A stretch of DNA of 64,000 bases from an uncultured Algibacter sp. (GTDB taxonomy: Bacteria > Bacteroidota > Bacteroidia > Flavobacteriales > Flavobacteriaceae): assembly GCF_947487575.1 (NCBI RefSeq), contig NZ_CANKXG010000001.1, positions 124,001-188,000 of the forward strand, given 5' to 3'. A program made the position numbers and the translations under genes. Below are positions 50,774 to 60,178 of the stretch, piece by piece (within the stretch, counting starts at the first letter, position 1; every line of letters starts with the position of its first letter). The notes beneath the pieces were generated by a model, which was given only the letters and a program-made list of their open reading frames with translations, did not search any database and was not told the origin of the DNA.

Positions 50774-53515
50774 ATGAGAAAAATTTTAATATTATTTACA
50801 CTCTTAATCACAGCGTTTATCCATGCTCAGAACACAGGTTCTGTAAGGGGAAAACTAACCGATAAAGAATATAATAATGAGCCGTTAGCTTTTGCCAATG
50901 TACTTTTAAAAGGAACAACCATTGGAACAACGTCTGACTTTGATGGTTTTTATAGCTTTGAAAATATTGAACCAGGAACTTACACTGTCATTTTCAGTTT
51001 TGTTGGTTACGAAACTCAAGAAATCAGCGCCATTATTGAAGCTGGAAAAACCACAGAAATTAATGTAATTATGAGTGCCAGTGCTGCATCTCTAGACGAA
51101 GTTGTAATTACAACAACTAAATCTAGAGAAAGTGAAACTGCTTTATTATTTGAACAAAAGAAAGCGGTTGTAATTAAAGAAAGTATTGGTGCAACACGTT
51201 TATCTAAAATAGGAGTGTCTGACGCTGCAACTGCAACTACCAAAATTTCAGGTGTAACTAAAAGTGAAGGATCTGGAGACATATATATTAGAGGTTTGGG
51301 AGATAGATACCTATCAACTACCATGAATGGTTTACCTATACCTTCTGATGATGTTAATAATAAAAATATTAATCTGAGTTTGTTTTCAACTAATATGATT
51401 GAAAATGTAGGGATTAGTAAAACATATACAACGCCTAGTTATGCAGACCAAACTTCAGGTAATGTTGATATTACTTCTAAAGGATATTCTAAGAAAGGAG
51501 CCTCTATTAGTATTAGTTCTGGATACAACACTAATGTTTTAGACTTAGATGGTGATTTTAAAAGAAGTGTTGCAACAGAAGACGTAACTCTAGGTTTTCA
51601 TAAAAAACAGTTTGCTCCTGTAGATTTGATTACAAATCAAAGTTGGGATCCTATAAAACAAAACAGTATTGGGAATTACGGAATATCACTTTCTGGAGCT
51701 CAAAAATTTGATGTATTTGGAAAAGAACTTAAAGTATTTGTTGCTGGTTCTCACTCTAAAACATCACAATATCAAGAAGGAATTTTTAGAAGTTATAGAT
51801 CTAATATCTTAGATAACGAATTTACTGATACCGAATCTTTTAGTACCAAAACAAACACTACTGGTTATGTAAATCTAGGGCTAAAATTAAGCGATAATCA
51901 CAGGCTTAAAATTAGCAGTTTATCTGTTAATACAAGTAATGATAATGTTTACGAACAAGGTAGAAATGGTGAAGGTTATGTATTCGATCAAGACCCACAG
52001 GAAGATGGCGCTTTTGTTAGGGACCAAAACTTTAAACAAACCATTTTATTAGTAAACCAAATTCAAGGTTCACATGACTTAAAAGAGAACAACAAACTAA
52101 CTTGGGCTGCAGGTTACAACTATGTATTAGCACAAGAACCAAATAGAATTAGAAACGAAGCTAATATATTGGATGCAAATACAGTACAATATGCTCACGT
52201 TGGAGATTTTCAACAAAGAAAATCAAACCAAAAAATTAAAGACATAGAATACAATGCCTATATAAACGATGCCATTTCTTTTGGGACATTAGATGAAGAT
52301 GAAAATCATCCATTTAAATTAAATTTTGGGGCAAACTTCCGTCAAAAAGACAGAGTATTTAGCTCTTTATTTATTGGTGTAAGAGCAAGAGATTTTCAAG
52401 TACCCTCTGTAGACCAATTTTCAGAAACATTTACTGATGAGAATTTTGATAACGGACTAGTTCTAAGAGAAAGGGAAGCAGATAGATACGATGCAGACTT
52501 AAATGTTATGGCTGGTTATGCAAATTTAGATTTTCATTTTGGCGAAAAAATTTCTGGTAATGCTGGTGTAAGATTTGAGCGCGATGAAATTAACGTTTTA
52601 TGGGATGTTTCCAACTATGTTGGACGAGTTGGATCTATTAAAAAAGAATATTCTGAATTATACCCAAGTTTAAACTTAAAATACGAATTAAACGATAAGC
52701 ATGCTATACGTTTTGCTTCTAGCTTAACTCAAACTTTACCAGAGTTTAAAGAATTAGCACCTTTCGAATATGTATCACCAACAGGTCGTGTTACAAGAGG
52801 TGATCCAGACTTAGAAAAATCGACTGTTATTAATGCCGATTTAAAATATGAATTTTTCCCTTCAAAAGGGCAATTACTTTCTGCAACGGCTTTTTACAAA
52901 GACATTAAAAACCCTATTAACTTAGCGCAAACAAGAGGGTCTTCAGGAATATTTGAATATGCCAATACAGGTGAAAACGCTAATATTTTTGGTTTAGAAT
53001 TTGAAGCTAGATTAGGACTTCTTGAAAATGAAGATGAAGAAAGTATTTTAGATTTTAACACCAACATTACAAAAATGTGGTTTAACCAAAATTTACTAGA
53101 AGAATTTCAATATAACAATATGACGGAGTCTGATTTACAAGGTGCTTCAGATTTAATCTTAAACAGTTCATTAAGTTATAATAGTAAAACCGAAAAAGAG
53201 TTTAATGCTACCTTAACAGGCAACTATTCTTCAGATAAGGTTTTCGCTCTAGGTTCTCCAGAAGACTTTAGCAACAGTGATGTTCTTTATAATGATGAAA
53301 TTATTGAAAAAGGATTTTTTACTCTTGATTTTGTATTAAGTAAAATGTTAACCGAAAAATTACAAATTAAATTAGTTGGTAGAAATTTACTTAACCCAGA
53401 CATTCAACAAACACAATTAATAAGAGATATTAATACAGGTGTTGAAACTGATGAAGTGGTTCTATCATACAAAAAAGGAGCTCAATTAAACCTAAGTTTG
53501 AAATACGATTTTTAA
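50774..53515 (+). CDS. TonB-dependent receptor with CarboxypepD_reg domain
   Basis: A 913-residue outer-membrane receptor with a signal peptide (cleavage near HAQ), an N-terminal CarboxypepD_reg-like domain (about 20-110), a plug with ATTKISGVTKSEGSGDIYIRGLGDRY and a barrel ending LSLKYDF with a C-terminal Phe. No SusD partner follows. Its position in the PHO-box region, next to a beta-helix lipoprotein and phosphate porin, suggests uptake of a phosphorus-containing compound (inference). Confidence 0.9.
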   Translation: MRKILILFTLLITAFIHAQNTGSVRGKLTDKEYNNEPLAFANVLLKGTTIGTTSDFDGFYSFENIEPGTYTVIFSFVGYETQEISAIIEAGKTTEINVIMSASAASLDEVVITTTKSRESETALLFEQKKAVVIKESIGATRLSKIGVSDAATATTKISGVTKSEGSGDIYIRGLGDRYLSTTMNGLPIPSDDVNNKNINLSLFSTNMIENVGISKTYTTPSYADQTSGNVDITSKGYSKKGASISISSGYNTNVLDLDGDFKRSVATEDVTLGFHKKQFAPVDLITNQSWDPIKQNSIGNYGISLSGAQKFDVFGKELKVFVAGSHSKTSQYQEGIFRSYRSNILDNEFTDTESFSTKTNTTGYVNLGLKLSDNHRLKISSLSVNTSNDNVYEQGRNGEGYVFDQDPQEDGAFVRDQNFKQTILLVNQIQGSHDLKENNKLTWAAGYNYVLAQEPNRIRNEANILDANTVQYAHVGDFQQRKSNQKIKDIEYNAYINDAISFGTLDEDENHPFKLNFGANFRQKDRVFSSLFIGVRARDFQVPSVDQFSETFTDENFDNGLVLREREADRYDADLNVMAGYANLDFHFGEKISGNAGVRFERDEINVLWDVSNYVGRVGSIKKEYSELYPSLNLKYELNDKHAIRFASSLTQTLPEFKELAPFEYVSPTGRVTRGDPDLEKSTVINADLKYEFFPSKGQLLSATAFYKDIKNPINLAQTRGSSGIFEYANTGENANIFGLEFEARLGLLENEDEESILDFNTNITKMWFNQNLLEEFQYNNMTESDLQGASDLILNSSLSYNSKTEKEFNATLTGNYSSDKVFALGSPEDFSNSDVLYNDEIIEKGFFTLDFVLSKMLTEKLQIKLVGRNLLNPDIQQTQLIRDINTGVETDEVVLSYKKGAQLNLSLKYDF

Positions 53516-53783: not shown

Positions 53784-55814
53784 ATGAAAAATTTATTTGT
53801 AAAACTATTAAGTATATCCATGGCCTTTGCAGCTTTTACTTTAACAAGTTGTGACTCTGAAGATCCAGATCCTATAACTAGAGAAACAACAGAAGTTATA
53901 GAAAATCTAGAAGCAGGAATACTAAAAGGAACGTTGGACGAAGATTACACACTTACTGCGTCAACTGTATACAACTTAACTGGTCAATTTATTATTGATG
54001 ATGGTGCAACATTAAACATTCCTGCAGGAACAAGAATACTGGCAGATAATGGTGGAACTGATGTTTATATAGCAACTTTAATGGGTGGTACGATTAATAT
54101 TAATGGATCTGCTGGAAATCCAGTTATTATGTCATCTGCTGATGGTAATCCTGGAGATTGGGGAGGTTTAACATTGTGTGGTAAAGCTACAACTACTGCT
54201 GGTGTTGATGCAACTGCAGAGGTTGGCGGTTTTATTTATGGTGGTAATGATGATTCTGATAGTTCAGGAATTATTAGATACTTACAAATATCTGGAACTG
54301 GTGCTCAAATTAACTCTGAGTCTCAATACAATGGTGTTTCTTTTTACGCAGTTGGTTCTGGTACTTTAGTTGACAACCTTGCCGTAATAAATGGTGATGA
54401 TGATGGTGTTGAGTTTTTTGGTGGAACTGTTGAAGTTTCTAATTTATACTTAGAAAACAATAGTGATGATGCTATTGATTGGACTGAAGGATGGAGTGGT
54501 AGCGTTACGAACTCATACATTTCGCATACCGTTGCTGGTTTCTCTACTGTTTTTGAAGGAGATAAAGATAATGGTAACCCAGAATTTAATAACATTACAG
54601 CTGTATCAACTGTTGGTGGAACTGCTTTACAATTCAAGAAAACTTCTGGCGGAACAATTGATGGTCTTTCATTAGTAGGTTATGATGTTGATTTAGATAT
54701 GAAAGATGGTGGAACTGTAACAAACGTTACTTTTTCTGATGGTTATATTCCAGTTGCTATTAATGAAGACCCTGCAACAGACGGCTACTTTTACTCTTTA
54801 AGTACAACTGCAGTTGGCAACACAACTTTAGATGATTTTCCATGGGTAAGTTCAGATATTTCTTTTGAGAGCAGCATACTTCAAGGTGCCGTAACTGGTG
54901 ATGTTACTCTTGATGCTTCTATTTCCTATGTCCTTAATTCTTCTTATATTGTACAAGATGGTGGAAAATTAACAATTCCTGCTGGTACAAGAATTACTGC
55001 TAGAGATGGTGGAACTGGAGTTTACATAGCCATTTTACAAGGTGGTGAAATAGATGTACAAGGTACTTCTACCAACCCAGTAGTAATTGCTTCTGCAGTT
55101 GCTAGCCCAGGTGATTGGGGAGGTTTAACAATTTGTGGTAATGCTACGACCTCTGCTGGTGTTGATGCTGTTGCTGAAGTTGGTGGATTTATATATGGTG
55201 GAACTAATGATACTGATAATTCAGGTTCTATTACATACCTTGTTCTTAAAGGAACTGGTGCTCAAATTAACTCTGAGTCTCAATATAATGGTGTATCGTT
55301 ATACGCTGTAGGTTCTGAAACAATACTAGAAAACATTTCTGTAATTAATGGTGATGATGATGGTATTGAGTTCTTTGGAGGAACTGCATCTGTAACTAAC
55401 ATTTACTTAGAAAACAATAGCGATGATGCTATTGACTGGACTGAAGGATGGAACGGATCTGTAACTAATGCTTACATTTCGCATACAATTGCTGGATTCT
55501 CTACAGTTTTTGAAGGAGACAAAGCAAACGGAAACCCAACATTTAGTAATATTACAGCAATATCTTCTGTTGGAGGTACTGCATTACAATTCAAGAAAAC
55601 TTCTGGTGGAACAATAACAGGATTACACTTAACTGGATATGATGTTGATTTAGACATGAAAGACGCTGGAGATTTATCTAACGTACAAATTAATGGAGCC
55701 GATGCTGATGCTACTTTAGTTTCTGGTGAAACGTCTAAGTACACATTAAACTCAGGAAAAGATGGGACTGCTTTAGACATCTCTGCATGGGCATGGAAAA
55801 GTGCTAGTTTATAA
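53784..55814 (+). CDS. Duplicated beta-helix lipoprotein
   Basis: A 676-residue lipoprotein (lipobox TSCDSED) made of two tandem copies of a parallel beta-helix unit of about 310 residues. Long stretches are almost the same in both halves, including GTGAQINSESQYNGVS, VINGDDDG, EFFGG, NNSDDAIDWTEGW, ISHT and FEGDK, so the duplication is recent or gene-converted. The family is not recognised; the surface-exposed beta-helix and acidic DD/DDD stretches suggest binding of polymers or cations. It is third in the phosphate region. Confidence 0.75.
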   Translation: MKNLFVKLLSISMAFAAFTLTSCDSEDPDPITRETTEVIENLEAGILKGTLDEDYTLTASTVYNLTGQFIIDDGATLNIPAGTRILADNGGTDVYIATLMGGTININGSAGNPVIMSSADGNPGDWGGLTLCGKATTTAGVDATAEVGGFIYGGNDDSDSSGIIRYLQISGTGAQINSESQYNGVSFYAVGSGTLVDNLAVINGDDDGVEFFGGTVEVSNLYLENNSDDAIDWTEGWSGSVTNSYISHTVAGFSTVFEGDKDNGNPEFNNITAVSTVGGTALQFKKTSGGTIDGLSLVGYDVDLDMKDGGTVTNVTFSDGYIPVAINEDPATDGYFYSLSTTAVGNTTLDDFPWVSSDISFESSILQGAVTGDVTLDASISYVLNSSYIVQDGGKLTIPAGTRITARDGGTGVYIAILQGGEIDVQGTSTNPVVIASAVASPGDWGGLTICGNATTSAGVDAVAEVGGFIYGGTNDTDNSGSITYLVLKGTGAQINSESQYNGVSLYAVGSETILENISVINGDDDGIEFFGGTASVTNIYLENNSDDAIDWTEGWNGSVTNAYISHTIAGFSTVFEGDKANGNPTFSNITAISSVGGTALQFKKTSGGTITGLHLTGYDVDLDMKDAGDLSNVQINGADADATLVSGETSKYTLNSGKDGTALDISAWAWKSASL

Positions 55815-55891: not shown

Positions 55892-56206
55892 CTATAACGA
55901 AGCGACATTATTTTCATAATTGACTTCTTTTTTAGATCCGTCAATCCAATAAATCCATTTGCCGACTTTTTTTCCATTATCATAATTTGCAGAAACTGTT
56001 TTCTTGCCTTCTGTGTTAAAGCTTAACCAAACACCTTGTAATTTACCATCTGCTGTGTAAGAACCTGTTTGGCTTACAACACCATTGTCATGATAATAAA
56101 CAACATCAATTAAGTTTGTGTCTTTATTAAGTTTTAATTCTCTTTCTTTTTGACCAAAAGAGACCACAGTAATTAAAAAGGCAAAAACAAATAATAACTT
56201 CTTCAT
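55892..56206 (-). CDS. MORN-like repeat secreted protein
   Basis: A 104-residue secreted protein with a signal peptide (MKKLLFVFAFLITVVSFGQ). It has three or four MORN/YwqK-type repeats (YYHDNGVVSQTGSYTADGKLQGVW and GKKVGKWIYW). ATG 56206 is used, as the frame extending to 56278 covers promoter-like DNA. The antitoxin label of database homologues is not supported here; function is unknown. Confidence 0.75.
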   Translation of the reverse strand: MKKLLFVFAFLITVVSFGQKERELKLNKDTNLIDVVYYHDNGVVSQTGSYTADGKLQGVWLSFNTEGKKTVSANYDNGKKVGKWIYWIDGSKKEVNYENNVASL

Positions 56207-56233
56207 AATTATGGGGGTTTTAACATTATGATA

Positions 56234-56290
56234 TAAAGATATAAAATACATAACATTTACGCAACTCTCCCGTAACATTAATTTAACATT
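56234..56290. promoter_or_regulatory. Four-unit PHO-box-like array with minus-strand -7 box
   Basis: Hexamers ATAACA, GCAACT, GTAACA and TTAACA start at 56250, 56261, 56272 and 56283, each 11 bp apart. The minus-strand -7 box TATCTTTA (56241-56234) lies just beside it, upstream of the MORN gene. The units read in the plus direction, opposite to that gene. Confidence 0.5.
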
Positions 56291-56358
56291 AAAAATGTAA
56301 GCAACTGGTTTTAAATTGATTAATACTAAACATTTAACATTGAAATATTAATAATTAC

Positions 56359-56403
56359 TTAATATAGCGGTTACATTAAGATTACCTTAAACGGCGATAT
56401 TTG
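56359..56403 (+). promoter_or_regulatory. PHO-box-like array and promoter of the small RNA candidate
   Basis: TTAATA-TAGCG-GTTACA-like/TTACAT-TAAGA-TTACCT units start at about 56359, 56371 and 56382 (TAAT/TTAC/TTAC spaced 11 bp). A -7-like GATATTTG follows at 56396-56403, the same -7 sequence as before the PiT gene. Confidence 0.55.
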
Positions 56404-56408
56404 CTATG

Positions 56409-56512
56409 TCTTAAGACTAAATCAATTAGTATTTCATATAACTATTAGTTTTTGTCGACTACATTATCATGATTTCTAACGAGACTGCCTTGGCCAAGGC
56501 AGTCTTTTTTTT
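56409..56512 (+). ncRNA. Candidate PHO-controlled small RNA
   Basis: About 104 nt with no ORF, from the predicted start near 56409 to a strong intrinsic terminator (56482-56512: AGACTGCCTT/AAGGCAGTCT with GGCC loop, then eight Ts). It has its own PHO-box-like promoter, and the porin gene has a separate promoter region after the terminator. No Rfam family is claimed. It could instead be an attenuated leader of the porin gene. Confidence 0.55.
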
Positions 56513-56522
56513 GTTAAATTAT

Positions 56523-56540
56523 TTAACAATTAGGAAACAT
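56523..56540 (+). promoter_or_regulatory. PHO-box-like pair before the porin gene
   Basis: TTAACA-ATTAG-GAAACA: two hexamers 11 bp apart (56523-56539), upstream of AATATTTG (about 56551) or TATTTG sequences. Confidence 0.45.
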
Positions 56541-56593
56541 TAGCCTCGCAAAATATTTGGTTATTTGCAGCGACAAAAACTAATATTTTAATA

Positions 56594-57823
56594 ATGAAAT
56601 TTAATTTTTTTTTAGTGCTATGTTTAAGCACTATTCTATCAGTTACATCACAAGAAATAAGTGATACATCATTTGGTAAAGGTCTAATTAACTTTACTGC
56701 TAAAGACAGTTCATTCAGTATTAAGTTTGCGCCACGTTTTCAAATGCGATACATGGGATCATGGAATCATGATGGAAATCAATATGGTTCTCCAGAACAT
56801 AACATACTTATAAGACGTGCACGTTTAAAATTTGACGGTTTTGCTTATAGCCCAAAATTAAAATACAAAATTGAGTTAGGGCTTTCTAATCGAGACTTAT
56901 CTGGGGGTAATCAATTTAATCGAAATACACCTCGTTATATACTTGATGCTGTTTTAATGTGGCATTTTGCTAAAAACTGGGAACTTTGGGCAGGACAAAC
57001 TAAATTACCTGGTAACGTTGAGCGTGTTATATCTTCTGGTAATCTTCAATTTATAGACCGCTCTCTACTTAACAGCCGTTTTACTTTAGACCGTGATATT
57101 GGTATTCAATTACGTCATAAATTTTATTTAGGAGACAATTTTTTAATTCGCGAAAAAGTGGCTTTATCGCAAGGTGAAGGACGAAACGTTACTGAAGGAA
57201 ACGAAGGTGGATTACAATACACAGGCCGTTTAGAATTATTGCCTTTCGGTGCTTTCAAATCTAAAGGTGATTACAGTGCATCTGATTTAAAAAGAGAAGA
57301 AAAACCAAAACTATCGTTAACATTTACATATAACTTTAATGAAAATGCGGTTAGAGAAAGAGGTTTTACTGGTGATTATATGTTTACAACTGAAGATGAG
57401 TCTAAAAATGGACCTTTACACGAAACAGATCAAACTACCGTTTTCGTTGATGCTATGTATAAGCATAATGGTTTCTCTTTTATGGGAGAATATGCTAAAC
57501 GTACTGCCACCGACCCTATCTTTACCAACTCTGGAGACCCTTCAACTACTGATGATGATATCGAACATATCGTATTAACAGGTAACGCATTAAACTTACA
57601 AGCTGGTTATTTATTTAAAAGCAACTACGAAATTGCTGGTAGATTTACAACTATAAACTACGAATCTGTAACTAAAAAACTTCCAGTAAAGCAATATACA
57701 CTTGGTTTTAATAAATTTGTACATGGGCATAAACTAAAAGTACAAAGTGATATAAGTTATACATCCCTTGATGGAAATGAAGATAACATTACATTTAGAC
57801 TAGGATTTGATTTCCATTTCTAA
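56594..57823 (+). CDS. Phosphate-selective porin O/P-like
   Basis: A 409-residue outer-membrane protein with a signal peptide and 16 or more barrel strands, ending in LGFDFHF. The N-terminal segment RFQMRYMGSWNHDGNQ and the RRARLKFDGFAYSPKLKYKIELG stretch are typical of the OprO/OprP family. It sits in the PHO-box region 73 nt upstream of the PiT transporter, which supports phosphate passage through the outer membrane. Confidence 0.85.
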   Translation: MKFNFFLVLCLSTILSVTSQEISDTSFGKGLINFTAKDSSFSIKFAPRFQMRYMGSWNHDGNQYGSPEHNILIRRARLKFDGFAYSPKLKYKIELGLSNRDLSGGNQFNRNTPRYILDAVLMWHFAKNWELWAGQTKLPGNVERVISSGNLQFIDRSLLNSRFTLDRDIGIQLRHKFYLGDNFLIREKVALSQGEGRNVTEGNEGGLQYTGRLELLPFGAFKSKGDYSASDLKREEKPKLSLTFTYNFNENAVRERGFTGDYMFTTEDESKNGPLHETDQTTVFVDAMYKHNGFSFMGEYAKRTATDPIFTNSGDPSTTDDDIEHIVLTGNALNLQAGYLFKSNYEIAGRFTTINYESVTKKLPVKQYTLGFNKFVHGHKLKVQSDISYTSLDGNEDNITFRLGFDFHF

Positions 57824-57826
57824 AAC

Positions 57827-57871
57827 ATAACATTTAGGTAACCTTATACTCATATAGTAAAATGATATTTG
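57827..57871 (+). promoter_or_regulatory. PHO-box-like array and promoter of the PiT gene
   Basis: ATAACA-TTTAG-GTAACC-TTATA-CTCATA, three units at 11-bp spacing (57827-57854), then GATATTTG (57864-57871) as -7. This is the clearest example in the region. Confidence 0.65.
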
Positions 57872-57895: not shown

Positions 57896-60178
57896 ATGGA
57901 TAATATTTATTTATTAATGCTAATTGCCATAACTGCACTAGCTGTGTTTGATATTATTGTTGGTGTAAGTAATGATGCTATTAATTTCCTAAATTCTGCA
58001 ATTGGTTCTAAAGTATTGTCTTTAAGAACAATAATGATTGTTGCTAGTTTAGGTATTTTTATTGGAGCCGTTTTTTCTAGCGGAATGATGGAAGTAGCCA
58101 GAAAAGGTATATTCGTTCCAGCACAATTTGAATTTGGTGAGATTATGCTCATTTTTATGGCTGTAATGATTACTGATATTTTACTACTAGACTTCTTTAA
58201 TACACTAGGGCTTCCAACCTCAACAACAGTTTCTATTGTATTTAATTTATTAGGTGCAGCTGTAGTAATGTCTTTAATTAAAATAAGTCATTCTGAAACC
58301 GAAACTTTTGCAGACTTAGCTAACTATATAAACACTGAAAAGGCTATTACAATTATCTCAGGTATTTTATTATCTGTTGTTATTGCTTTCTCTGTAGGTG
58401 CAATTGTGCAATGGGTTTCTAGACTTATTTTTACGTTTAATTACGAAAAAAAAATAAAGAGTTTTGGAATTATCTTTGGTGGTGTTGCACTTACTGCAAT
58501 TACTTACTTTATTTTTTTAAAAGGACTTAAAGGCACACCTTACTATAAAGAATTAAAAGGATTATTAGAAGGCAATGAGGTATATACCATTCTTGGAAGT
58601 TTTGTGTTCTGGACATTGTTTTCATTCATATTCGAAAAATTGACTAAAAAAACTGTACTACTTGTTGTAATTGGTATTGGTACATTTGGATTAGCCTTAG
58701 CATTTTCAGGAAACGATTTAGTAAACTTTATAGGTGTACCTATGGCAGCTTATCATTCTTATGAAGCATGGATTGCTGGCGGTATGGATGCAGCCATGTC
58801 TATGGAAGTTTTAGACAAAAAAGTACCTGCAGAACCTTTATTACTTTTTATAGCTGGTACTATAATGGTATTAACCCTATGGTTTTCTAAAAAAGCAAAA
58901 ACAGTTGCTGAAACGGAATTAAGCTTATCTCGCCAAGGTGAAACTCACGAAAAATTTGAGCCTAATTTATTATCTAGATCAATCGTAAAAGGATCTAGTC
59001 AATTATCTAACTATTTTAGTGTTCTTTTACCAAAATCAGTTCAAAATAAATTTGCTAAAAGCTTTGATAAACCAGAAGTAGTTTTAACTAAAGATCAGAG
59101 TATTGATGCGCCTGCATTTGATATGATTAGAGCATCTGTAAACTTAATGGTAGCTGGTGTATTAATTGCAATAGCCACTTCTATGAAATTACCATTATCT
59201 ACAACCTATGTTACGTTTATGGTAGCAATGGGTACATCTTTAGCAGATAAAGCTTGGGGAAGAGAAAGTGCTGTGTATAGAGTTGCCGGTGTATTAAACG
59301 TAATTGGCGGATGGTTTGGTACTGCACTCGGTGCATTTATTGCTGCAGGAACGGTAGTATTCTTAATTAGTTGGAATCCTAAGGTTATGATACCCATTTT
59401 ATTGCTTTTAACTGCAATACTATTATATAGAAATTACAAATCTCATAAAAACAAATCGTCTAAAACACCAGATGAAGATAGTTTAAAAACAACTGGTAGC
59501 AGATCTGTACAAGGTGTTATTCTTGAAAGCGCAGGGAATATTGCAAATGTTGTAAAACGTGGTAATAAAATTTACTCTAACGCTATTAATGGTTTAGCAA
59601 AACAAGATTTAACTTCGCTTAAGAAAAATAAAAAACAAGTCACAAAACTTTCAGAAGAAGTAGATAGCCTTCGTGATAATATATTCTATTTTATTAAAAA
59701 CTTAGACGAAACAAGTTTACGCGCAAGTAGTTTTTATATCAATATTTTGGGGTATTTAGAAGACATGACACAATCTCTTGAGTATATATCTAAAGCAAGT
59801 CATAAACATATTAATAACAATCATCAAAAGCTTAAGTTTAGCCAAATAAAAGAACTAAAAGTCATTGATGATACACTAGAAATTCTTTTTAGAGATACCA
59901 AAGCAGCATTTGATTCTCGTTCGTTTGAACAAATTGAATCAATCCTTAATCGTAAAAAAGAAGTTCTTGATTTAGTAACCGAAAAAATCGTTAATCAAGT
60001 AGCAAGAACAAGAACTGAAGAGTCTAGTCCAAAAAATACAACGCTTTATTTTGGATTATTACTTGAGACTAAAGATTTACTTAAAGCAACTATGAGCCTT
60101 TTAGAAGAATATCATAACTCTCATGATGCTTCTGTTGAGCCAGCAACAATATCTAGTCCAGATTCAGAAGAAGCATAA
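57896..60178 (+). CDS. Inorganic phosphate transporter PiT with PhoU-like C-terminus
   Basis: A 760-residue protein. The N-terminal part (about 1-520) has about ten helices with duplicated PiT/PHO4 signatures, GVSNDAINFLNSAIGS at residue 22-37 and LPLSTTYVTFMVAMGTSLADKAWGRE in the second half. A second domain of about 200 residues (about 540-740) is helical and resembles PhoU. Fusion of transporter and PhoU-like parts suggests internal control. Its array is the best PHO-box example. Confidence 0.9.
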   Translation: MDNIYLLMLIAITALAVFDIIVGVSNDAINFLNSAIGSKVLSLRTIMIVASLGIFIGAVFSSGMMEVARKGIFVPAQFEFGEIMLIFMAVMITDILLLDFFNTLGLPTSTTVSIVFNLLGAAVVMSLIKISHSETETFADLANYINTEKAITIISGILLSVVIAFSVGAIVQWVSRLIFTFNYEKKIKSFGIIFGGVALTAITYFIFLKGLKGTPYYKELKGLLEGNEVYTILGSFVFWTLFSFIFEKLTKKTVLLVVIGIGTFGLALAFSGNDLVNFIGVPMAAYHSYEAWIAGGMDAAMSMEVLDKKVPAEPLLLFIAGTIMVLTLWFSKKAKTVAETELSLSRQGETHEKFEPNLLSRSIVKGSSQLSNYFSVLLPKSVQNKFAKSFDKPEVVLTKDQSIDAPAFDMIRASVNLMVAGVLIAIATSMKLPLSTTYVTFMVAMGTSLADKAWGRESAVYRVAGVLNVIGGWFGTALGAFIAAGTVVFLISWNPKVMIPILLLLTAILLYRNYKSHKNKSSKTPDEDSLKTTGSRSVQGVILESAGNIANVVKRGNKIYSNAINGLAKQDLTSLKKNKKQVTKLSEEVDSLRDNIFYFIKNLDETSLRASSFYINILGYLEDMTQSLEYISKASHKHINNNHQKLKFSQIKELKVIDDTLEILFRDTKAAFDSRSFEQIESILNRKKEVLDLVTEKIVNQVARTRTEESSPKNTTLYFGLLLETKDLLKATMSLLEEYHNSHDASVEPATISSPDSEEA

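Follow-up and report, generated by a model that had tools for sequence, protein, structure and literature searches.

Does the short intergenic region ahead of a porin gene, itself next to a phosphate transporter gene, encode a small RNA under phosphate control, and on which mRNA would such an RNA act? We addressed this question for the window, i.e. the whole analysed stretch of 64,000 nt, which belongs to a genome of 3.5 Mb; coordinates are those of its + strand. The porin gene, of the Porin_O_P family (PF07396, Pfam E 5.6e-11), lies at 56594-57823 and is followed at 57896-60178 by a PiT-type phosphate transporter gene (PF01384, PHO4, Pfam E 9.5e-29). Its product is 94% identical to the porin of an uncultured Algibacter and 89% identical to that of Algibacter marinivivus, the nearest named relatives. 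Upstream are genes for a TonB receptor (50774-53515) and a 676-aa protein without a Pfam match (53784-55814), followed by a small gene on the opposite strand (55892-56278). The candidate small RNA (sRNA), predicted to measure about 105 nt, occupies 56408-56512 and was delimited with covariance models R1/R2 and pair counts. The candidate, the porin and PiT genes and the regulatory features described below all lie on the + strand.

The preliminary description of this DNA had listed a PHO-box-like array, a promoter box shared with the PiT gene, about 100 nt with no ORF and a terminator, all ahead of a separate porin promoter. The array is present at 56348-56391 and consists of four 11-nt units, TTAATAATTAC / TTAATATAGCG / GTTACATTAAG / ATTACCTTAAA (56348-56358, 56359-56369, 56370-56380 and 56381-56391), recognised in the sequence and by lag-11 self-identity; its 11-nt period recurs across homologous promoters. 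More TTTAACATT-like repeats occur at 56219-56346, between the opposite-strand gene and this array. The putative -7 box of the sRNA promoter, GATATTTG at 56396-56403, has a mean column identity of 0.90 in 34 loci. As the accessible part of PMC9723704 has the -7 box span -12 to -5 relative to +1, transcription is predicted to start at 56408, the first base of the 5' hairpin. The same octamer is indeed found before the PiT gene (57864-57871), but it occurs four times in the window against 4.16 expected by chance, so the bare octamer carries no weight and was rejected as evidence.

Transcription would end at an intrinsic terminator at 56481-56512, identified by a terminator scan and a repeat finder and marked by covarying stem pairs. 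Its stem (56481-56506) counts 11 bp in the scan and 12 bp in the repeat finder, instead of the 10 bp given originally; the run of eight Ts is as described and overlaps the stem, beginning in its last bases. The fold of 56408-56512 beats 200 of 200 dinucleotide shuffles (z -3.5). In 34 close loci, mean column identity is 0.97 for the 5' hairpin, 0.98 for 56427-56480 and 0.93 for the terminator, compared with 0.695 for the spacer at 56512-56527 and 0.63 for porin codons 2-20; because these loci were chosen by similarity to 56359-56640, only the contrast between the parts counts. Both the sequence and the terminator are thus conserved in relatives, one of the checks that had been suggested.

The stretch is ORF-poor rather than ORF-free as claimed: a frame of 24 codons starts with an ATG at 56469 and runs through the terminator, and could speak for an element that encodes a small peptide. 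This frame is not conserved. The equivalent ATG is absent in 31 of 128 homologues, while the other 97 vary in frame and in length (1 to 55 codons), which leaves a peptide a negligible probability.

The element is widespread among relatives. At E 1e-3, DNA 56359-56640 matches 171 of 397 sampled genomes of the family and 124 of 237 genera, some only partly, and seven of the ten genomes of the genus, G006 only via a short stretch. Searching by motif identified 134 loci, 128 of them with a porin-type leader downstream; these 128 comprise 102 loci (101 genomes, 80 genera) and 26 named loci, partly from the same genomes. Algibacter, Jejuia, Olleya and Winogradskyella are examples of carriers that are culturable and non-pathogenic. 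Two of the remaining six lie at contig ends (L008, L083), one has a diverged leader (L053) and three have none (L059, L070, L090). The sRNA is found at 26 of the 34 named porin loci. Seven of the eight named loci lacking it were read: the leader motif left no trace in four (L131, L132, L133, L149), and three (L124, L138, L150) keep a full or partial leader with no detectable sRNA. Within the genus, six of ten genomes carry the sRNA, and the other four (G003, G004, G006, G007) also have no porin match at E 1e-10. Elsewhere, a leader is present in G299 and G345 with no credible sRNA hit, and a worn one in G041 with no detectable sRNA. These leaders, with those of L124, L138 and L150, speak against a strict link between sRNA and leader.

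The model also matches in G012, G034 and G299 (L168), the last not credibly; the hit in G012 (L196/L202) is weak, with AGTTTTTGTC on both strands, a GACAAAAACTAAGATT stretch and no porin match at E 1e-10 in that genome. Genome G149 has two units of sRNA, leader and gene (L080, L081), about 117 kb apart. In G130, a long reverse-complement copy of the porin leader precedes the porin on contig C107 (L060), and an ordinary sRNA copy without a leader lies on contig C108 (L059), an arrangement that may reflect either an inverted duplication or an assembly fault. An order-wide search found the element in 12 of 395 genomes, one of which (G650) lacks the core; with nine candidates scored per genome, this figure is no measure of prevalence.

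The RNA structure was set by hand from single folds and then cast into covariance models, and is therefore biased towards those sequences; no usable structure had come out of RNAalifold when it was run on 104 segments aligned with plain MAFFT. The model, built from 62 loci, finds the element in divergent loci too. It has a 5' hairpin, a central stem holding a loop, and the terminator. All three pairs of the 5' hairpin P1 (GTC-TTAA-GAC, 56408-56417) change on both sides, with 94.4% of cells paired, as do all 15 pairs of the central stem P2 (56425-56480), which presents the antisense loop and whose helices are paired in 86.7% and 91.9% of cells in homologues, and all 11 of the terminator stem. 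Taken over 95 homologues aligned to the model, 93.1% of cells are paired and 29 of 29 pairs show two-sided changes. Such changes affect 383 cells against 92.2 in shuffles (0 of 500 as high), and at most 89 when partner columns are slid by up to three positions. Fitting biases an alignment towards the structure, which is why the result on the unfitted MAFFT alignment (62 loci) matters: 60 two-sided cells are retained there against 15.8 in shuffles (0 of 500 as high), with slid controls reaching up to 34. In the window sequence by itself P2 is weak, forming in a free fold and being lost when the core is held unpaired, and the loop bases can pair among themselves in a small inner helix. The model also hit the opposite strand (about E 5e-6 at best; in one search, 11 of 37 hits); we attribute these matches to the inverted repeat and the symmetry of the terminator, and left them out of the counts. 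Position 56408-56512 is thus a well-supported conserved non-coding element, structured and terminated. Its conservation, covarying structure and conserved terminator, together with the loci apart from a porin treated below, uphold the earlier proposal of a small RNA.

What the preliminary description had missed is that the loop of this element is antisense to the start of the porin mRNA. The antisense arm (56440-56457, core GTTTTTGTC at 56448-56456) is complementary at 17 of 18 positions to a target arm in the porin 5' UTR (56571-56588, GACAAAAACTAAT..). The porin does have its own putative promoter behind the terminator, with a conserved, separate -7 box, GTTATTTG at 56560-56567 (sequence, homologues), and an array of its own. 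By the same -12 to -5 rule (PMC9723704, accessible part), the predicted porin +1 is 56572, the first base of the duplex, and the predicted mRNA 5' end reads GACAAAAACUAAU / GACAAAAAC. The longest exact complementary run is 15 nt, against at most 9 nt in 200 shuffles, and the exact 13-mer GACAAAAACTAAT occurs only twice in the 3.5-Mb genome of origin, once in each arm. Target prediction, which had been proposed as a check, points to the porin mRNA start: with the full sRNA, the porin ranks best of 53 window ORFs (-30.8; median -13.0).

The complementarity also co-evolves. Duplex energies were calculated for 121 distinct sRNA/leader pairs from the 128 loci, and averaged -25.4 kcal/mol for cognate pairs, -22.3 for non-cognate pairs and -8.5 for shuffled leaders. 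None of 20,000 permutations reached the cognate mean, a test that sequence relatedness inflates, and 108 of 121 cognates were stronger than the mean of foreign sRNAs. Covariation with the sRNA is seen at leader positions +10, +11 and +12 (28 two-sided cells; 0 of 500 shuffles at each position). Positions 0 to +7 are paired in all 121 pairs and show no informative change, nor do the nine core positions in any pair. Natural compensatory variants are, for example, TTAAG/CTTAA (L078, L101, L102, L107, L117, L174), TTACAG/CTGTAA (L105) and AAAG/CTTT (L073, L114). The complementarity spans 0 to +12 and ends upstream of -1, with 19 of 121 pairs matched at -2 and 17 at -3, a boundary that is expected if the porin mRNA begins there. 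At the other end, the first ATG falls within the predicted duplex in 118 of 119 pairs.

A near-invariant core of nine bases in two places could also be produced by inverted DNA sites of one regulator, with no RNA pairing involved. DNA sites would not account for flanks that covary base by base, with bulges, nor for a hairpin around the loop that covaries as RNA and is followed by a terminator, and we regard this explanation as very unlikely.

Complementarity to both the 5' end and the start codon marks the porin mRNA as a target for the sRNA, and we consider it likely that the element is a dedicated base-pairing sRNA repressing translation of Porin_O_P, a proposal in which transcription, start sites and pairing are inferred from sequence. 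A short transcript would start from its own promoter at about 56408 and end at 56512, and its central hairpin would expose AUUAGUUUUUGUCGAC in the loop. The loop would then pair in the cell with the very start of the porin mRNA, in a duplex extending to the AUG, so that ribosomes could not start and porin synthesis would be lowered. As the duplex runs from +1 through the AUG, blocked initiation is the simplest reading. RNA decay often starts at the 5' end of an mRNA, and pairing from the predicted first nucleotide, the same pairing that repression needs, could instead shield the porin mRNA from decay and so protect or activate it. This is improbable, given that a duplex lying over the ATG in nearly every pair should block initiation; the direction of the effect is thus probably repression.

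Another explanation would keep the element in cis, as a 5' leader or attenuator: the transcript from 56408 would usually end at the terminator but sometimes continue through it, and in the long form the loop would fold back and silence the porin start. As a corollary, only the porin's own promoter would yield translated mRNA, the element serving as an insulator or attenuator. The element and the porin share a strand and a tight spacing in nearly all loci, and in a fold of the read-through RNA (-60 kcal/mol, z -6.9) the two arms pair. The strength and conservation of the terminator speak against it, as does a porin promoter that is itself separate and conserved. So does genome G366, in which the sRNA (E 3.5e-8) lies behind another gene, the core is 2,852 nt from the leader and three ORFs on the opposite strand separate sRNA and porin. 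Pairing is kept there, with a duplex of -26.5 for the cognate sRNA against -18.3 for the window sRNA on the same leader. A cis-acting leader should always lie in the transcript of its target, and besides G366, the sRNAs of L059, L070 and L090 have no adjacent leader; these three may also count against a module restricted to the porin. It is therefore unlikely that the element is merely a leader, the outcome that the preliminary description had considered fatal to its proposal, although in genomes other than G366 some read-through may occur.

That the sRNA may act in trans is hinted at by G366 alone, where its gene is set apart from the porin and the arms still pair. The sRNA match in G366 (L166/L198) starts within the last codons of the preceding gene, and the sRNA may thus derive from the 3' UTR there. 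The element also stands apart from the porin in G115, in G023 and as the second copy in G130; in G115 it directly precedes PiT, and the only porin match of that genome (29% identity) lacks such a leader. In G661, from another family of the order (64% complete; L274/L279), model R2 matches (E 1.1e-8) between a TonB-receptor-like ORF and an outer-membrane-like ORF with no confident Pfam match. Here the core GTTTTAGTC faces the leader GACTAAAAT, a compensatory swap in a core that is invariant elsewhere, and the cognate duplex (-21.7) is stronger than the swapped ones (-11.2 and -11.8). An antisense match to the mRNA start, evolving in step with its target, is thus found in the 121 pairs as well as in G366 and G661.

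The TonB receptor at 50774 is a possible second target. It ranks second of the 53 window ORFs (-25.5), not far behind the porin, and in the congener G001 (L283) GACAAAAATAG / TTTGCAGCGACAAAAATAG is present in the leader of the TonB receptor, as in that of the porin, and this leader reaches -26.1 with the sRNA of that genome. The other 11 of 12 TonB leader pieces range from -13.7 to -25.0, and three of the starts may be those of another gene. The genome of origin holds 22 sites with one mismatch, one of which (L223) has, within 59 nt, the start of an ORF of 60 aa or more; it was rejected as a second target, since this ORF lies inside a longer open frame. In ten other genomes GACAAAAACTA occurs in 68 places, and among the 30 scanned, two besides the porin leaders lie near an ORF start (L244, L255; one genome each).

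The phosphate control proposed for the sRNA is plausible, being consistent with the repeat arrays and with the Porin_O_P and PHO4 neighbours. The porin promoter carries a PHO-box-like array at 56523-56555 (sequence, lag-11), whose third unit is degenerate in the window; the form typical of the family is TTAGGAAACATTAAGTTAACATTGG. Self-identity at lag 11 is 0.427 in 113 sRNA promoters, the highest of lags 4-25 (shuffled 0.324), and 0.497 against 0.323 in 112 porin promoters, so that 11-bp direct repeats lie upstream of both promoters. Neither -7 box conforms to TAnnTTTG, as is also the case at activated promoters. Given the same kind of array at both, the two RNAs are probably switched on by a single OmpR/PhoB-type regulator; the sRNA would then cap or delay the pore, as in an incoherent feed-forward pair. 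Direct repeats of 11 bp are common to other OmpR-family regulators. As genome-wide proof the PHO-box pattern was rejected: TTAACATNNNNTTAACAT with one mismatch allowed gives 11 hits in the genome of origin, against 6 for a reversed control pattern, and two of these hits fall within the present gene cluster, with no phosphate gene recognised behind the other nine when translations were read by eye. According to the accessible part of PMC8115612, a PF07396 gene in the PhoBR cluster of F. johnsoniae, of the same family as the window porin with no orthology implied, is not induced by phosphate depletion, whereas a TonB receptor and a lipoprotein beside it are; PhoB control is for that reason inferred here.

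Taken further, sRNA and porin may form a module of one sRNA and one porin under the same phosphate regulator, co-evolved across much of the Flavobacteriaceae and a second family and perhaps reaching the TonB receptor, with the RNA as the means by which the phosphate response of marine Bacteroidota acts after transcription; we give this wider view slightly less than even chances. The proposed sRNA would bring phosphate uptake in abundant marine bacteria under additional, post-transcriptional control. To our knowledge, Bacteroidota have few base-pairing sRNAs for which a target is defined; the target proposed here is backed by co-evolution in 80 genera, with the natural compensatory variants as ready-made mutants for testing the pairing. 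The group starts translation without Shine-Dalgarno sequences (PMC9723704, accessible part), and the pair allows a test of translation block by an sRNA in such a group.

Rfam 15 returned no family at gathering score, and of four sub-threshold hits at E up to 5 the best had E 0.82; in the open literature we found no description of this RNA, the Rfp RNAs being compared by description only. Among 41 genomes of the large genus g127, taken by its size to be Flavobacterium, four weak model hits were obtained, none with the core. Like Rfp18 and the other Rfp RNAs of Flavobacterium psychrophilum, as described in the accessible part of PMC9723704, the element is a conserved Flavobacteriaceae sRNA with a strong structure. 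Rfp18 is reported to act on metalloproteases via a third stem-loop (PMC9723704, accessible part), whereas the predicted target here is a porin, a word absent from the main text of PMC9723704 as far as accessible, and the two are set apart by description.

With the enterobacterial sRNAs, the comparison is one of design; homology to MicF, MicC or OmrA/OmrB was neither found nor claimed. These are porin-repressing base-pairing sRNAs, and OmrA/B and their targets share a common two-component regulator. Like them, the element is a terminated sRNA with predicted pairing at the translation start of an outer membrane protein mRNA. Unlike them, in most genomes its gene immediately precedes the target gene on the same strand, the pairing starts from the predicted first base of the mRNA, and a single target stands out.
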